NCBI RefSeq assembly: GCF_936925435.1
Contig: NZ_CAKZHQ010000004.1
Span: 186,001-250,000, forward strand
DNA from: an uncultured Ramlibacter sp.
Lineage (GTDB): Bacteria > Pseudomonadota > Gammaproteobacteria > Burkholderiales > Burkholderiaceae_C
Direction of reading: 5' to 3'
DNA length: 64,000 nucleotides
The notes under the pieces were generated by a model. That model made no database searches. It saw only the letters and a list, made by a program, of their open reading frames with translations, and was not told the DNA's origin. The first letter of the stretch is position 1; every line of letters begins with the position of its first letter. Of the stretch, positions 28,317-38,988 are shown piece by piece. A program made the translations under genes and the position numbers.

Positions 28317-28373
28317 GCACCGTCCCGTCCTGGCATGCGGCCTCCCGGTGAGCGCCGCTTTTTTCTGCTGTCC

Positions 28374-28859
28374 ATGAAAAAAACACTTGAAACCGCCTGC
28401 GGTGTGCTGGCCGCTGCTGCCCTGTTCGGCATCATGGCCCTGACCTTCCTGGACGTGTGCAGCCGCAAGCTCCTGGACAACTCCATCCCCGGCTCGCTGG
28501 AGCTGACCGAGTTGATGATGGTGGCGGTGATCTTCGCCGCCCTGCCCCTGGTGTCGCTGCGCGCCGAGCACGTCAGCTTCGACTCGCTGGACAGCTGGCT
28601 GCCAGCTGGCTTGCGCAGGCGCCAGGCGATGCTGGTGCACCTGCTGTGCGCGGCCGCCATGCTGGCGCTGGGCTGGCTGATGTGGCGCGAGGGCGGGCAA
28701 TTCCTGGCCACCGGCGAGACCACGGCGCAGCTCAAGATCCTGAAGGCGCCCTTCATCTACGCCATGGGCGTGCTGTGCGCGCTGACCGGCCTGGTCCACC
28801 TGGGCCTGGTCACGCAGCCGCCGGTCGAGCCGGCCGAAGGCGAAGGGGCAGCACTATGA
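28374..28859 (+). CDS. dctQ: TRAP transporter small permease DctQ
   Basis: From ATG 28374 the protein has 161 residues and four membrane helices, as expected for DctQ; an ATG at 28335 in frame would add a polar extension and is less likely. The helix order, SRKLLDNSIPGSLELTELMMVAVIFAALPLVSLRAEHVSFD, matches the DctQ family. It links DctP to the large permease. Its stop codon overlaps the ATG of a 20-residue open frame that connects it with dctM. Confidence 0.88.
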   Translation: MKKTLETACGVLAAAALFGIMALTFLDVCSRKLLDNSIPGSLELTELMMVAVIFAALPLVSLRAEHVSFDSLDSWLPAGLRRRQAMLVHLLCAAAMLALGWLMWREGGQFLATGETTAQLKILKAPFIYAMGVLCALTGLVHLGLVTQPPVEPAEGEGAAL

Positions 28860-28918
28860 ACCGCTGGGCCGCTCCCAAGGCGAATGCCGCAGCGCGCCGC
28901 GCGGAGGCTTGCAAATGA
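28856..28918 (+). CDS. 20-residue coupling ORF, copy 1 (repeat cassette)
   Basis: This 63-base open frame encodes MNRWAAPKANAAARRAEACK. Its ATG overlaps the dctQ stop (ATGA at 28856-28859) and its stop overlaps the dctM start (ATGA at 28915-28918). It also holds GGAGG seven bases before the dctM ATG. A nearly identical cassette lies at 38300-38362 between unrelated genes. The first 52 bases differ at only two sites. Most likely it works by re-initiation and as the ribosome binding site for the downstream gene; the peptide itself may have no function. See findings. Confidence 0.6.
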   Translation: MNRWAAPKANAAARRAEACK

Positions 28919-30207
28919 TTGAAGCCCTGCTTGGATTTGCCGCCATCTTCGTCCTGGCCCTGTTGCGCATCCCGCTGGCCTTTGCCATGGGCCTGGTGGG
29001 CGTGGCCGGCATAGCCCTGACCCGCGGCTGGGCACCCGCCCTGGCCAGCACCGCGCAAGTGGTCTATGAGACCGGCTTTGCCTACACGCTGTCGGTGATC
29101 CCGCTGTTCATCCTGATGGGCAACTTCGTGGCGCGCGCCGGCCTGGCCCACGAGCTGTTCCAGGCGGCCTACGCCTTCATCGGCCATGTGCGCGGCGGCC
29201 TGGCCCACGCCACCATCGCCGCCTGCGCCGGCTTCGGCGCGATCTGCGGCTCGTCCATCGCCACCGCCGCGACCATGAGCAAGGTGGCCTATCCCTCGAT
29301 GCAGAAACTGGGCTACAGCAATTCGCTGTCCACCGGCGTGATGGCGGCCGGCGGCACGCTGGGCATCATGATCCCCCCGTCGACCATCATGGTGATCTAC
29401 GGCATCGTCACCCAGACCAACATCGGCAAGCTGTTTGCCGCCGGCGTCATCCCCGGCCTGCTGACGGCCGCCCTGCTGATGCTGACGGTGTCGGTCATGA
29501 CCCTGCGCGATCCTGAACACGCGCCGCCGGGGGCGCGCAGTTCCTGGCCTGAGCGCTGGCGCGCCCTGCGCGGCATCTGGGGCGTGCTGCTGCTGCTGGT
29601 GGTGGTGCTGGGCGGCATCTACGGCGGCTTCTTCACCGCCACCGAAGGCGCGGGCTTCGGCGCCGCAGGCGCGTTCTTCTTCGCCCTGGCCCGCAGGCGC
29701 CTGACCTGGGCCATCTTGCTGCAGGTGCTGGTGGAGTCGGCGCGCACCACGGCCATGCTGTTCACCTTGTTGATCGCCGCCACCATCTTCGCCAACTTCA
29801 TCAACTTCACCAGCCTGCCGGGCGACCTGATGCACTGGATCACCCACCTGGCCCTGTCGCCCACCATGGTCATCGTGGCCATGATGGCGATCTACGTGGT
29901 GCTGGGCACGGTGATGGAGGAACTGACCATGGTGCTGCTGACCATCCCGCTGTTCTTTCCCATCGTCACCCAGCTGGGGTTCGACCCGGTCTGGTTCGGC
30001 GTGCTGATCGTGATGATCGTGCAGATCGGCCTGATCTCGCCGCCGGTGGGCATGAACCTGTTCGTGCTGAACTCATTGCTGCCGGGCGTCGGCCTGGCCG
30101 CCATCTTCCGCGGCTGCTGGCCCTTCGTCGCGATGATGGTCGTCGTGCTGGGCCTGCTGATCGCGTTCCCGCAGATCAGTCTGTGGCTGCCGTCCCTGAT
30201 GAAATGA
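28915..30207 (+). CDS. dctM: TRAP transporter large permease DctM
   Basis: This 430-residue inner-membrane protein starts at ATG 28915, overlapping the coupling ORF; a TTG at 28909 is possible but less well placed. It has about 12 helices with the DctM motifs IPLAFAMGLVGVAGIALTRG, FILMGNFVARAGLAHELFQAAYAFIGHVRGGLAHATI, CGSSIATAATMSKVAYP and GTLGIMIPPSTIMVIYG. It carries the substrate with sodium. The 3' end overlaps the convergent mscS-like gene by 32 bases, with no room for a separate terminator. Confidence 0.95.
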   Translation: MIEALLGFAAIFVLALLRIPLAFAMGLVGVAGIALTRGWAPALASTAQVVYETGFAYTLSVIPLFILMGNFVARAGLAHELFQAAYAFIGHVRGGLAHATIAACAGFGAICGSSIATAATMSKVAYPSMQKLGYSNSLSTGVMAAGGTLGIMIPPSTIMVIYGIVTQTNIGKLFAAGVIPGLLTAALLMLTVSVMTLRDPEHAPPGARSSWPERWRALRGIWGVLLLLVVVLGGIYGGFFTATEGAGFGAAGAFFFALARRRLTWAILLQVLVESARTTAMLFTLLIAATIFANFINFTSLPGDLMHWITHLALSPTMVIVAMMAIYVVLGTVMEELTMVLLTIPLFFPIVTQLGFDPVWFGVLIVMIVQIGLISPPVGMNLFVLNSLLPGVGLAAIFRGCWPFVAMMVVVLGLLIAFPQISLWLPSLMK

Positions 30208-35215: not shown

Positions 35216-37227
35216 ACGCGCTGCGCGCCCGCATCGCGGCCCTGCCGCGCGACAGCCGCGACACCCTGTTCCTGCTGCTGGTGATCGCCTGGGTGGTGCT
35301 GCCGCAAGCCGGTAACCTGCCGCTGTGGTGCAGCCTGGGCACGGCAGCCATCCTGCTATGGCGCGGCTGGCTGGCCCTGGCCGCGCGGCCGCTGCCGGGC
35401 AAGTGGTGGCTGCTGGGCGTGCTGGCCGTCACCCTGCTGGCCACCCTGGCCAGCTACCGGACACTGCTGGGCCGCGACGCCGGCGTCACGCTCATCGTGG
35501 CGCTGCTGGCGCTCAAGACGCTGGAACTGCGCGGACGCCGCGATGCCTTCGTCATCTTCTTCCTGGGCTTCTTCGTGATGCTCAGCAACTTCTTCTTCTC
35601 GCAGTCGCTGCCGGTGGCCGCCGCCATGCTGGTGGCGCTGCTGGGCCTGCTCACCGCCCTGGTCAATGCCCACATGCCGGTGGGCCGGCCGCCGCTGGCG
35701 CAAGCGGCGAAGACGGCGGCCTGGATGGCGCTGCTGGGTGCTCCCATCATGGCCGTGCTGTTCGTTCTGTTTCCCCGCTTCGCGCCGCTCTGGGGCATTC
35801 CCGGCGACGCCATGAGCGGCCGCAGCGGCCTGTCGGCCAGCATGCAGGTGGGCAATCTGGCCAGCCTGGCGCTGGACGAGAGCATCGCCATGCGGGTCAA
35901 GTTCGAAGGCCGGCCTCCGGCCCAGCAGGACCTGTACTTCCGCGGCCCTGTGCTGGCCAATTTCGACGGCCGTGAATGGCGCCCGCTGCAGCGCCTGGGC
36001 AACCGCTTCGCACCGGGGTTGCAAGCGCCTTCCCTGTTGCAAGTGGCCGGCACGCCGGTACGCTACCAGGTCACGATGGAAGCCAATAACCGGCCCTGGC
36101 TGCTGGTGCTGGACGCGGCCTCCAGCGCGCCCGAGGTCCCGGGCATGGCAACGCTGATGACCAGCGAGCTGCAATGGGTGGCCGACCGGCCGGTCACCGA
36201 CCTGCTGCGCTACCGGGCCGAGAGCTATTTCCAGTTCCGCCATGGGCCACAGGCCAGCGCTGTGTCCTTGCCGCCCGAATACCGCGAGTTACCGCCGGGC
36301 TTCAACCCGCGCACCCAGGCACTGGCGCAGGAGCTGGTGCGCAACGCTGCAACGGGCACGACCGGCAAGGCCGCCCTGGTGGGTGGGGCCCTGGAGCATC
36401 TGCGCAGCGGCGGCTATACCTACACGCTGGACCCTGGTGTGTATGGCCAGCACACCGCCGACGAATTCTGGTTCGACCGCAAGGAGGGCTTTTGCGAACA
36501 CATCGCCTCGGCCTTCGTGGTGCTGATGCGGGCCATGGACATCCCCGCGCGTGTCGTCACCGGCTACCAGGGCGGCGAGATGAACACGGTGGACGGCTTC
36601 TGGGTGGTGCGGCAGGCCGACGCCCACGCCTGGACCGAGGTCTGGCTGGCCGGCCGCGGCTGGGTGCGGGTCGACCCCACCTCCGCCGTGGCCCCGGGCC
36701 GCACCGGCGCCCTCCAGCGCCTGCGCCCGCCCCAAGGTGTGCTGGCCGGCGCCATCGGCACCTTCAATCCCACCTTGGCGGCCAGCCTGCGCGCCGCCTG
36801 GGACGCAATGAACAACGGCTGGAACCAGTGGGTTCTCAACTACACGCAAAGCAAGCAGCTGAACCTGCTCAAGGACATCGGCTTTGAATCGCCCAGCTGG
36901 GAAGACCTCAGCTACGTGCTGCTGGCGCTCATCGTGCTGGTGGCCCTGGTCGGCGCCCTGTGGTCGCTGTGGGAGCGCAGCCAGCACGATCCCTGGCTGC
37001 GCTTGTTGGGGCGCACGCGCAAGCGCCTGCGCGAGGCCGGGCTGGAACTGCCCGCTGCCGCCGGCCCGCGCCAAATTGCGACGGCTGTCACAGCGCGTTT
37101 CGGCTCCCATGGGCGAGGATTGGCAGACTGGCTGCTGCGGCTGGAGGCGCAGCGCTATGCCCGCGCCCCGAGCGCCAGCCTGACCACCCTGCAACGCGAA
37201 TTCAACCAACTGGCCTGGCCATCTTGA
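35212..37227 (+). CDS. tgpA: TgpA-like transglutaminase (DUF3488 membrane protein)
   Basis: This 671-residue protein has five or six N-terminal helices (about 20-190), a large periplasmic region with the transglutaminase core, a last helix near 560-585 and a C-terminal cytoplasmic part. The catalytic triad is visible: Cys428 in EGFCEHIASAFVVLMRAMDIPARVVTGYQGG, His in ADAHAWTEVWL and Asp in VRVDPTSAV. Pseudomonas TgpA is a periplasmic transglutaminase needed for growth. The ATG overlaps the DUF58 stop (ATGA) and mltB follows with a TGATG overlap. Confidence 0.93.
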   Translation: MNALRARIAALPRDSRDTLFLLLVIAWVVLPQAGNLPLWCSLGTAAILLWRGWLALAARPLPGKWWLLGVLAVTLLATLASYRTLLGRDAGVTLIVALLALKTLELRGRRDAFVIFFLGFFVMLSNFFFSQSLPVAAAMLVALLGLLTALVNAHMPVGRPPLAQAAKTAAWMALLGAPIMAVLFVLFPRFAPLWGIPGDAMSGRSGLSASMQVGNLASLALDESIAMRVKFEGRPPAQQDLYFRGPVLANFDGREWRPLQRLGNRFAPGLQAPSLLQVAGTPVRYQVTMEANNRPWLLVLDAASSAPEVPGMATLMTSELQWVADRPVTDLLRYRAESYFQFRHGPQASAVSLPPEYRELPPGFNPRTQALAQELVRNAATGTTGKAALVGGALEHLRSGGYTYTLDPGVYGQHTADEFWFDRKEGFCEHIASAFVVLMRAMDIPARVVTGYQGGEMNTVDGFWVVRQADAHAWTEVWLAGRGWVRVDPTSAVAPGRTGALQRLRPPQGVLAGAIGTFNPTLAASLRAAWDAMNNGWNQWVLNYTQSKQLNLLKDIGFESPSWEDLSYVLLALIVLVALVGALWSLWERSQHDPWLRLLGRTRKRLREAGLELPAAAGPRQIATAVTARFGSHGRGLADWLLRLEAQRYARAPSASLTTLQREFNQLAWPS

Positions 37228-38303
37228 TGTCCCTTCGACTCACCCTTTTTGCTCTTTTTCTGATAGCAATCCACGCTCTACCGGCGGGGGCTGAGGCCAA
37301 GAAACCTGCCAAAACCCAAGTAGCAGCCCGGCAGGGAACGCCCTTCGCCGCGAACGACCAGGCCATGCGTTTTGCCCAAGACGTGGCGCAGCGGCGCGAC
37401 CTGGACCCGGAGTGGACACGCCGCGCCGTCGGCAGCGCCCAGAACCTGGCGGTGGTGTCGCGCCTGATGCAGCCGCCGCCGGGCGGCACGCGCAAGAACT
37501 GGGGCGTCTACCGCAGCCGCTTCATCGACCCGGTGCGCATCAATGCCGGTGTGCGCTTCTGGCAAGACAACCGCGCCACGCTCGAGCGCGCCGAGCAGGA
37601 ATACGGCGTGCCGGCGGCCATCGTCGTGGGCATCATCGGCGTGGAAACCATCTACGGCCGCAACACGGGCGACTTCCGCGTGATCGACGCCCTGGCCACC
37701 CTGGCGTTCAACTTCCCCGCCTCGCATCCGCGCGCCGCCGAGCGCAGCGAGTACTTCCGCGGCGAACTCGAGCAGTTCCTGTCGCTGCAGCACCGCAGCG
37801 GCGGCGACCCGCTCCAGCCCCTGGGCAGCTATGCCGGCGCCATGGGCCTGCCGCAGTTCATGCCCAGCAGCCACGTCAAGTGGGCGGTGGACTTCGACGG
37901 CGACGGCCGCATCGACCTGTCCAACAGCGCGGCCGACGCCATCGGCTCGGTCGCCAGCTACTTCAAGGGCTATGGCTGGCAGACCGGCATGCCCACCCAC
38001 TACCCGGTGGCCTTCGACAGCGCCCGGCTGGACAAGGAGGCCCTGCTGGCGCCGGACATCCTGCCCAGTTTCAGCGTGGCCAGTTTCACGGCCAAGGGCG
38101 CGGTGCTGGAGGGCCAGGCCCTGCAGCACAATGGGCCTCTGGCACTGGTGGAGTTGCAAATGGGCGAAGCAGCGCCGCGCTACGTGGCGGGAACGGAAAA
38201 CTTCTACGTGATCACCCGCTACAACTGGTCGAGCTACTACGCCATGGCGGTGATCGAGCTGGGCCGCGAGGTCCAGCAGGCAATGCAGCGGGGCGGGCCA
38301 TGA
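37227..38303 (+). CDS. mltB: Lytic murein transglycosylase B
   Basis: This 358-residue periplasmic enzyme has a signal peptide (residues 1 to about 23, ending PAGAEA), whose codons carry a copy of a dispersed repeat (37254-37300). The catalytic Glu140 lies in VVGIIGVETIYGRNTGDFRVIDALATLAF. Further MltB motifs are GSYAGAMGLPQFMPSSHVKWAVDFDGDGRIDL and the C-terminal NFYVITRYNWSSYYAMAVIELG. It cleaves the glycan strand to 1,6-anhydro-muramyl ends. No lipobox Cys is seen, so it is soluble. It fits with the nearby envelope genes. Confidence 0.94.
   Translation: MSLRLTLFALFLIAIHALPAGAEAKKPAKTQVAARQGTPFAANDQAMRFAQDVAQRRDLDPEWTRRAVGSAQNLAVVSRLMQPPPGGTRKNWGVYRSRFIDPVRINAGVRFWQDNRATLERAEQEYGVPAAIVVGIIGVETIYGRNTGDFRVIDALATLAFNFPASHPRAAERSEYFRGELEQFLSLQHRSGGDPLQPLGSYAGAMGLPQFMPSSHVKWAVDFDGDGRIDLSNSAADAIGSVASYFKGYGWQTGMPTHYPVAFDSARLDKEALLAPDILPSFSVASFTAKGAVLEGQALQHNGPLALVELQMGEAAPRYVAGTENFYVITRYNWSSYYAMAVIELGREVQQAMQRGGP
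37254..37300 (+). repeat. Short dispersed repeat within the mltB signal-peptide codons
   Basis: TTTTTCTGATAGCAAT, a variable middle and GGCGGGGGCTGAGG match the end patterns of copies near 46294 and 54113. It encodes much of signal-peptide residues 10-25. Confidence 0.5.
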
Positions 38304-38362
38304 ACCGCTGGGCCGCTCCCAAGGTGAATACCGCAGCGCGCCGCGCGGAGGTTGCGTCATGA
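38300..38362 (+). CDS. 20-residue coupling ORF, copy 2 (repeat cassette)
   Basis: This 63-base open frame encodes MNRWAAPKVNTAARRAEVAS. Its ATG overlaps the mltB stop (ATGA at 38300-38303) and its stop overlaps the start of the HD-type gene (ATGA at 38359-38362). GGAGG lies seven bases before that start. It matches the cassette at 28856-28918 in length, overlaps and sequence: two changes in the first 52 bases, both altering the residue, so DNA rather than peptide appears to be conserved. Confidence 0.6.
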   Translation: MNRWAAPKVNTAARRAEVAS

Positions 38363-38988
38363 GCGTTACTCTGGCCTCCTGGCAACGCTGCTGGCGCGAA
38401 CTGGGCGCCACGGCGCCCGACACCGCGCTGTTCAACACCCTGATCGCGCGCTACAGCGAGAAGCACCGCCACTACCACACGCTGCAGCACCTGCGCGAAT
38501 GCCTGGAGCAGTTCGATGCGGTGCGCACCATGGCGCAGCGGCCGGCCGAGATCGAGCTGGCGCTGTGGTTCCACGACGCGGTCTATGAGCCGCAGCGCCA
38601 CGACAACGAGGCCCTGAGCGCCGCCTGGGCCCGTGACGCCGTGCTGCAGGCCGGCCTGAGCGCCGAGGTGGCGCAGCGCATCCACGCCCTGATCATGGAC
38701 ACCTTGCACCTGCAGGCACCGGCCGAGCCGGACGCCAGGCTGCTGGTGGACGTGGACCTGTCCATCCTGGGCGCCGATCCGGCGCGTTTCGACGAGTCCG
38801 ATGCGCAGATCCGCGCCGAGTTCGCCCATGTGCCCGAGGCCGAGTTCCGCCAGGGCCGCCGGCGCGTTCTCAATGGCTTCCTGGCGCGCCCCCGGCTGTA
38901 CAACACCGAGCGCTTCTACCAGGCCTGCGAGCTGCAGGCCCGCGCCAACCTGCAGCGCTCGCTGGCGCGGCTGGCGGCCCCGACTTAG
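38359..38988 (+). CDS. HD-domain-like metal-dependent phosphohydrolase (COG4339-like)
   Basis: This 209-residue protein shows RHYHTLQHLRECLEQFD, ELALWFHDAVYEPQRHDNEALSAAWARDAV and IMDTLHL, with His and the HD pair arranged as in the predicted HD-superfamily hydrolases annotated next to the pattern R-H-Y-H-x-x-x-H and W-F-H-D. The C-terminal DVDLSILGADPARFDESDAQIRAEFAHVPEAEFRQGR is also typical. No signal peptide is seen. The substrate is unknown. It is translated through the coupling cassette behind mltB. Confidence 0.85.
   Translation: MSVTLASWQRCWRELGATAPDTALFNTLIARYSEKHRHYHTLQHLRECLEQFDAVRTMAQRPAEIELALWFHDAVYEPQRHDNEALSAAWARDAVLQAGLSAEVAQRIHALIMDTLHLQAPAEPDARLLVDVDLSILGADPARFDESDAQIRAEFAHVPEAEFRQGRRRVLNGFLARPRLYNTERFYQACELQARANLQRSLARLAAPT

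Follow-up and report, generated by a model that had tools for sequence, protein, structure and literature searches.

Two copies of a short repeat at gene junctions

The window, i.e., the whole analysed stretch of 64,000 nucleotides from an uncultured Ramlibacter sp., contains two copies of a short repeat, both situated between the in-frame TGA of an upstream gene and the start of the downstream gene in the arrangement ATGA...ATGA (Table 1). Read directly from the sequence and in line with the earlier note on this DNA, copy 1 consists of an uninterrupted mini-ORF of 20 sense codons and a TGA, flanked by ATGA on both sides, with a GGAGG placed 7 nt 5' of the dctM ATG. The recurrence of this structure also proved correct: copy 2 has the identical layout, with ATGA at 38300 and 38359 and GGAGG at 38347-38351, and AACCGCTGGGCCGCTCCCAAGG with no more than 3 mismatches matched the window twice, against a mean of 0.00 in 100 shuffles. 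The second half of the element alone, with 3 mismatches, gave 5 window matches where 5.15 were expected, i.e., not above chance. The net insertion per window copy is 59 bp, the figure of 63 including the right ATGA. Seven copies stand out clearly in the element's own genome (E<=1.5e-12), and an eighth match (E 9.9e-7) was not recognisable by script as an element copy.

Table 1. Positions of the two element copies, their parts and the adjoining genes in the window
Feature	Position	Strand	Remarks
Element copy 1, mini-ORF MNRWAAPKANAAARRAEACK*	28856..28918	+	E 2.2e-27, G000:C4:214856-214918; 59-bp net insertion plus right ATGA
Left ATGA, copy 1	28856..28859	+	dctQ ends at TGA 28857-28859; mini-ORF begins at the ATG
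Hairpin 1, copy 1	28860..28881	+	Family consensus, arms around GGG-CCGCT-CCC; outermost pair here A.C
Hairpin 2, copy 1	28887..28904	+	Family consensus; closing CC pairs with first GG of the Shine-Dalgarno-like site
GGAGG Shine-Dalgarno-like site, copy 1	28903..28907	+	7 nt before dctM ATG
Right ATGA, copy 1	28915..28918	+	Mini-ORF stop and dctM start
dctQ, TRAP small permease	28335..28859	+	PF04290
dctM, TRAP large permease	28915..30207	+	PF06808
Element copy 2, mini-ORF MNRWAAPKVNTAARRAEVAS*	38300..38362	+	E 2.6e-28, G000:C4:224300-224362
Hairpin 1, copy 2	38304..38325	+	ACC opposite GGT, compensated
Hairpin 2, copy 2	38331..38348	+	-
GGAGG, copy 2	38347..38351	+	7 nt before downstream ATG at 38359
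SLT_2 transglycosylase gene	37227..38303	+	PF13406; stop within left ATGA of copy 2; start codon inferred
209-aa protein	38359..38988	+	No Pfam match

Sampling, unit lengths and tandem arrays

Genome contigs were scanned with GGGCCGCTCCCAAGG-N(5-20)-GCAGCGCG, a pattern that holds neither TGA nor a start codon, which yielded 98 stretches. The 80 listed of these all belonged to Burkholderiales, betaproteobacteria or a proteobacterium, largely to Variovorax and also to Ramlibacter, Rhodoferax, Polaromonas, Rubrivivax and unclassified Burkholderiales. Together with other loci, the family as read comprises 134 copies in 115 arrays (16 of them tandem), which were reduced to 102 non-redundant arrays by the similarity of their upstream flanks. 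The fixed length postulated in the earlier note was not confirmed: only 104 of the 151 distinct units bounded by TGA on either side measure 59 bp, the remainder being 62 bp (24), 60 bp (11) or of other lengths (12), whereby 131 units are 2 mod 3, 16 are 0 and 4 are 1. The left and right N of the bordering NTGA agreed weakly (p 0.0497; 143 of the 151 units). The spacing in tandem arrays (n = 19, all arrays) was 0 mod 3 in 12 cases, which fuses the units into one longer frame, 2 mod 3 in six, which produces an overlap chain, and 1 mod 3 in one.

Placement at gene junctions

A gene showing the expected codon bias terminates in frame at the left TGA in 86 of the 102 non-redundant arrays; the other left ends lacked a TGA (6), were open without a GC3 peak (5), not open (3) or too short (2). 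The right start opens an ORF in 77 arrays, and the rest had no start (15, some truncated by contig ends or N), were not open (5), had no GC3 peak (4) or were too short (1). Both flanks, a gene end and a gene start, were validated in 68 arrays, which agrees with the proposal of a repeatedly inserted element that keeps both overlaps and carries its own Shine-Dalgarno site. A predominance of copies outside junctions or out of frame, which the earlier note had named as evidence to the contrary, was not found, since 64 of these 68 arrays are 2 mod 3 in length (three are 0 and one is 1). Of 85 testable arrays, 68 have a mini-ORF, counted from the first NTG, whose end coincides exactly with the following start, and 17 do not.

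A less biased sample was obtained from the relative G021, with 34 copies listed at E<=1e-6 (150 candidates scored), although a mild bias arises from the TGA and ATGA at the ends being part of the covariance model, and two copy pairs are tandem. Here, 29 copies have the left stop, 24 the right start and 21 both, with eight having the left stop only and two having neither; among the 21 with both flanks, 16 are 2 mod 3, five are 0 and none is 1. Three copies (L331, L346, L349) lie at CTGA gene stops with no start after them. Since copies without a downstream start exist, a coupled gene pair is unnecessary for insertion.

Empty and filled orthologous junctions

Four junctions were compared in relatives, using the best 30 loci for each from 39 to 59 genomes with matches. 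Between dctQ and dctM, only the own genome is filled and the other 29 loci are direct overlaps (28 GTGA and one ATGA), whereby the element has A on both sides as opposed to G in 28 of the 29 relatives. At the transglycosylase-209 aa junction, three loci are filled (own, G020 and G021), 24 are direct overlaps and three are of another kind. The junction of a third own copy is filled in two genomes (own, and G003 with two tandem units), with 20 direct overlaps and eight others, and that of a G021 GTGA copy in one, with 15 direct overlaps and 14 others; in this scoring, L192 was counted as an overlap despite a downstream frame of 159 codons. Some relatives at the third junction (L203, L206, L211, L216) carry unrelated short spacers in which, by eye, a mini-ORF ends in the next ATGA.

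Empty orthologous junctions, which the earlier note had suggested looking for, do therefore exist, but they are already ATGA/GTGA overlaps. Its idea that the coupled pair is created by the element is not supported: dctQ and dctM overlap without it in 29 of the 29 relatives compared, and the genes at the second site do so in 24 of 29. Because relatives lacking the element already overlap, the insertion seems to have entered existing coupled overlaps, so that coupling was preserved and not made. The comparison of the four junctions shows a precise entry into ATGA/GTGA overlaps with both overlaps retained.

Overall, the element is real, widespread and coupling-preserving, and it is probably mobile. 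From the sequence comparisons, we consider it likely to be a mobile repeat, short (mostly 59 or 62 bp) and non-autonomous, that inserts at TGA stops, often in ATGA/GTGA overlaps, with the coupling kept. Insertion would take place at a TGA stop, very often inside the four-base overlap of co-directed genes, and leave NTGA at both ends. A ribosome finishing the upstream gene would restart at the mini-ORF ATG, translate 20 codons through the hairpins, stop where the mini-ORF TGA overlaps the following ATG, and restart there, aided by GGAGG. Such an insertion would be nearly neutral to the operon and could thus persist at dense gene junctions. Growth in tandem has been mostly in frame.

The same picture might be the result of survivorship alone, whereby the element inserts without site preference and selection against polar insertions yields the frame and the overlaps. 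The copies without a left TGA (6 of 102) fit this explanation, and the unrelated spacers ending at the next ATGA indicate that selection alone can shape such spacers. Random insertion, however, predicts many harmless non-coding copies, yet 29 of the 34 G021 copies begin at a gene stop, some of them at CTGA stops without a following start, and we regard survivorship alone as unlikely, albeit the strongest of the rival explanations.

Hairpins and pairing at the left end

The columns of two hairpins (12 pairs) were picked by eye from the sequences and then tested, giving 96.9% of cells paired compared to 94.9% in shuffles. Five of the 12 pairs had double changes, in 16 cells, and no measure was matched in the shuffles (0/500), although the kinship of the copies can inflate this support. 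Slid controls were lower on every measure, with the +1 slide still reaching four double-change pairs as against five, and RNAalifold independently recovered 10 of the 12 pairs. The two hairpins are thus supported by covariation at the sequence level. Folding of single copies was no more stable than that of shuffles for both window copies (z 0.08 and 0.32), and the minimum-energy fold of copy 1 differs from the consensus hairpin 1.

Alternatively, the element might be a regulatory RNA, retained for stoichiometry and not selfish, in which hairpin 2 masks part of the Shine-Dalgarno site and the downstream product is made only if the upstream gene is translated. This would be consistent with the consensus CC of hairpin 2, whose partner in 90% of cells is the first GG of the GGAGG, and with the gain of a GGAGG-like site at the junction. 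A patchy occupancy (the element fills 1, 3, 2 and 1 of the 30 loci compared per junction) and gene pairs that differ from site to site argue against such a role, which makes it improbable and somewhat more so than survivorship.

The left stem may extend across NTGA: positions 1 and 2 are paired in nearly all copies, and out of 80 copies, 70 lack pairing at position 3 (G) and 74 at position 4 (A). For the mirror analysis, 195 of 207 distinct copies were used (12 with odd left arms were dropped), from 90 and 99 loci selected. The inner arms are perfectly complementary in 176 of the 195, a value flattered by best-offset matching. The base before TGA and its mirror inside the element were combined as A-T (144), G-C (11, from 8 loci), A-C (5) and G-T (3), with a Fisher value of 3.8e-11 for these 163 copies. 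A left TGA is present in 182 copies, of which the remaining 19 had other combinations, and related and tandem copies are not independent. The target could conceivably be found by base pairing, with the internal mirrored sequence pairing to NTGA, as in a guide-directed single-strand hairpin element with the stop codon as its target. We hold this to be quite improbable, less likely even than a regulatory RNA: most copies (GAAT form) pair only N and T of NTGA, and the mirror-base match is explained equally well by selection on the stem or by a stem base carried along with the element. Diverged copies with longer palindromic arms were noticed by eye at L304, L306 and L309, e.g., ATGAGCGC/GCGCTCAT in L306.

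Reading frame and the 20-codon peptide

Among the 68 arrays validated on both sides, 58 are single copies with a length of 2 mod 3, none of which contains an internal stop, and the six double arrays (119 bp four times, 122 and 125 bp) are all 2 mod 3. As the length is largely inherited, this bias partly reflects ancestry. The mini-ORF peptide is rich in Arg, Ala and Lys. No selection on its amino acids was seen in 65 copies of 59 bp, where 175 changes were non-synonymous (70% expected) and 82 synonymous (29% expected), an outcome which the hairpin constraint could blur; third codon positions were the least variable (0.068 compared to 0.100 and 0.078; 65 copies). A peptide under selection is not supported by this ratio, and the peptide is probably a mere by-product. 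That the repeat is a multiplied gene for tiny functional proteins (20 aa) would fit the uninterrupted frame and the peptide composition but is highly improbable, given changes as expected without selection and third positions that vary least.

Four G021 copies (L335, L339, L342, L352) are of a 60-bp form (0 mod 3) with the left end NTGAGCCCGCC or similar. In one of these, L335 at the second junction, the element frame stays open past the junction and lengthens the following gene by 20 codons, giving 231 codons from the element ATG compared to 211 from the gene's own GTG. Start annotation can therefore be affected where the element frame continues into the next gene, as in this one checked copy.

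Distribution

Of the 299 genomes in the taxonomic family, 128 matched the element at E<=1e-10, as did four genomes outside it (G087, G488, G513, G542) of at most 195. A looser cut of E<=1e-3 gave 217 of 299 family genomes and 116 of 141 genera. When the whole order was scanned, 24 genomes matched that were neither the own one nor members of its family, and 17 of them had a single weak match (8.8e-4 to 6.5e-6), which indicates that the looser tally is inflated, and E<=1e-10 was used for this reason. Copy numbers are lower bounds, the family scan having scored about 17 candidates per genome. Phages gave no element match, and among 72,556 plasmid records two matched, both from Variovorax. In these (NZ_LR594669.1, 439384-439437, and NZ_LR594673.1, 408251-408304), phnK and phnJ are both annotated under the match. 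No Rfam model reached its gathering score anywhere in the window, and four loci gave no match at E<=0.1.

A Y1_Tnp (PF01797) match occurs in 222 of the 299 family genomes. No mobiliser was found: RAYT, considered as a candidate, showed no association with the element (Fisher p 0.11), being undetected in 39 of 128 element-rich and 38 of 171 other genomes, whereby some assemblies are incomplete, the match lists were hand-transcribed and genomes absent from them were counted as negative.

Comparison with known repeats

The mycobacterial interspersed repetitive units (MIRUs) are described as short repeats, said to be mobile, which are inserted at start codons with the repeat ORF coupled to the gene at a -4 nt spacing (PMC12548453) and with a likely small effect on expression (PMC12548453, citing Supply 1997). 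Tandem units lie between senX3 and regX3, and lengths of 77 and 53 bp are given (excerpt of PMC4213456); the excerpt of PMC2864759 deals with other elements. An insertion of this type, which the earlier note had believed to be undescribed, is thus preceded by MIRUs, which are described as following the same logic (PMC12548453). Similarly to MIRUs, the element ORF overlaps the flanking stop and start (68 of 102 arrays, 21 of 34 G021 copies), and copies are both tandem (16 of 115 arrays) and dispersed and are oriented with the genes (left TGA in frame in 86 of 102). It differs in its Burkholderiales-type hosts, as opposed to mycobacteria, and in its length of 59/62 bp as opposed to the 77 and 53 bp of the excerpt. 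Moreover, it has two covarying hairpins, in contrast to MIRUs, which are not known to have palindromes or dyad symmetry and use DTGA sites. We would thus say that the element works like a MIRU without classing it as one, in view of the hairpins and of a likeness drawn from descriptions of MIRUs. With REP/RAYT systems, it has in common short repeats with hairpins; it differs from them in that REPs are known as extragenic and that element-rich genomes lack a detected RAYT at least as often as the others.

The Beta-proteobacterial repeat element (BRE) occurs in Bordetella and Comamonadaceae as a small, GC-rich and presumably mobile repeat, in both dispersed and tandem copies; it is about 90 bp long and usually intergenic, at times overlapping ORF ends by a few bases (excerpt of PMC3110155). 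Compared by description only, our element differs by its mini-ORF and stop-codon placement, neither of which appears in that excerpt (PMC3110155). No description of the present element was found in the open-access literature searched. The concept is known from MIRUs, from which the family is set apart by its hosts and its hairpins; it resembles a longer, terminator-like repeat found in the same genome. If the favoured reading of a stop-inserting mobile repeat is true, the MIRU strategy of occupying translational overlaps would also exist in Comamonadaceae and relatives, perhaps independently, and operons there would carry 20-codon junction ORFs, with pairs of filled and empty operons serving as natural experiments on translational coupling.

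The longer repeat has 12 exact matches in the own genome (L291-L302); a hairpin like that at the left of the element precedes CCCCTCGGGG and GTGGGGG in it. An opposite-strand gene ends just after it in 10 of the 12, a same-strand gene ends shortly before it in seven, and both apply in five. It may be a relative or ancestor of the element, and it may itself be the published BRE (PMC3110155). Its outer arms vary among copies yet appear, by eye, to be complementary.
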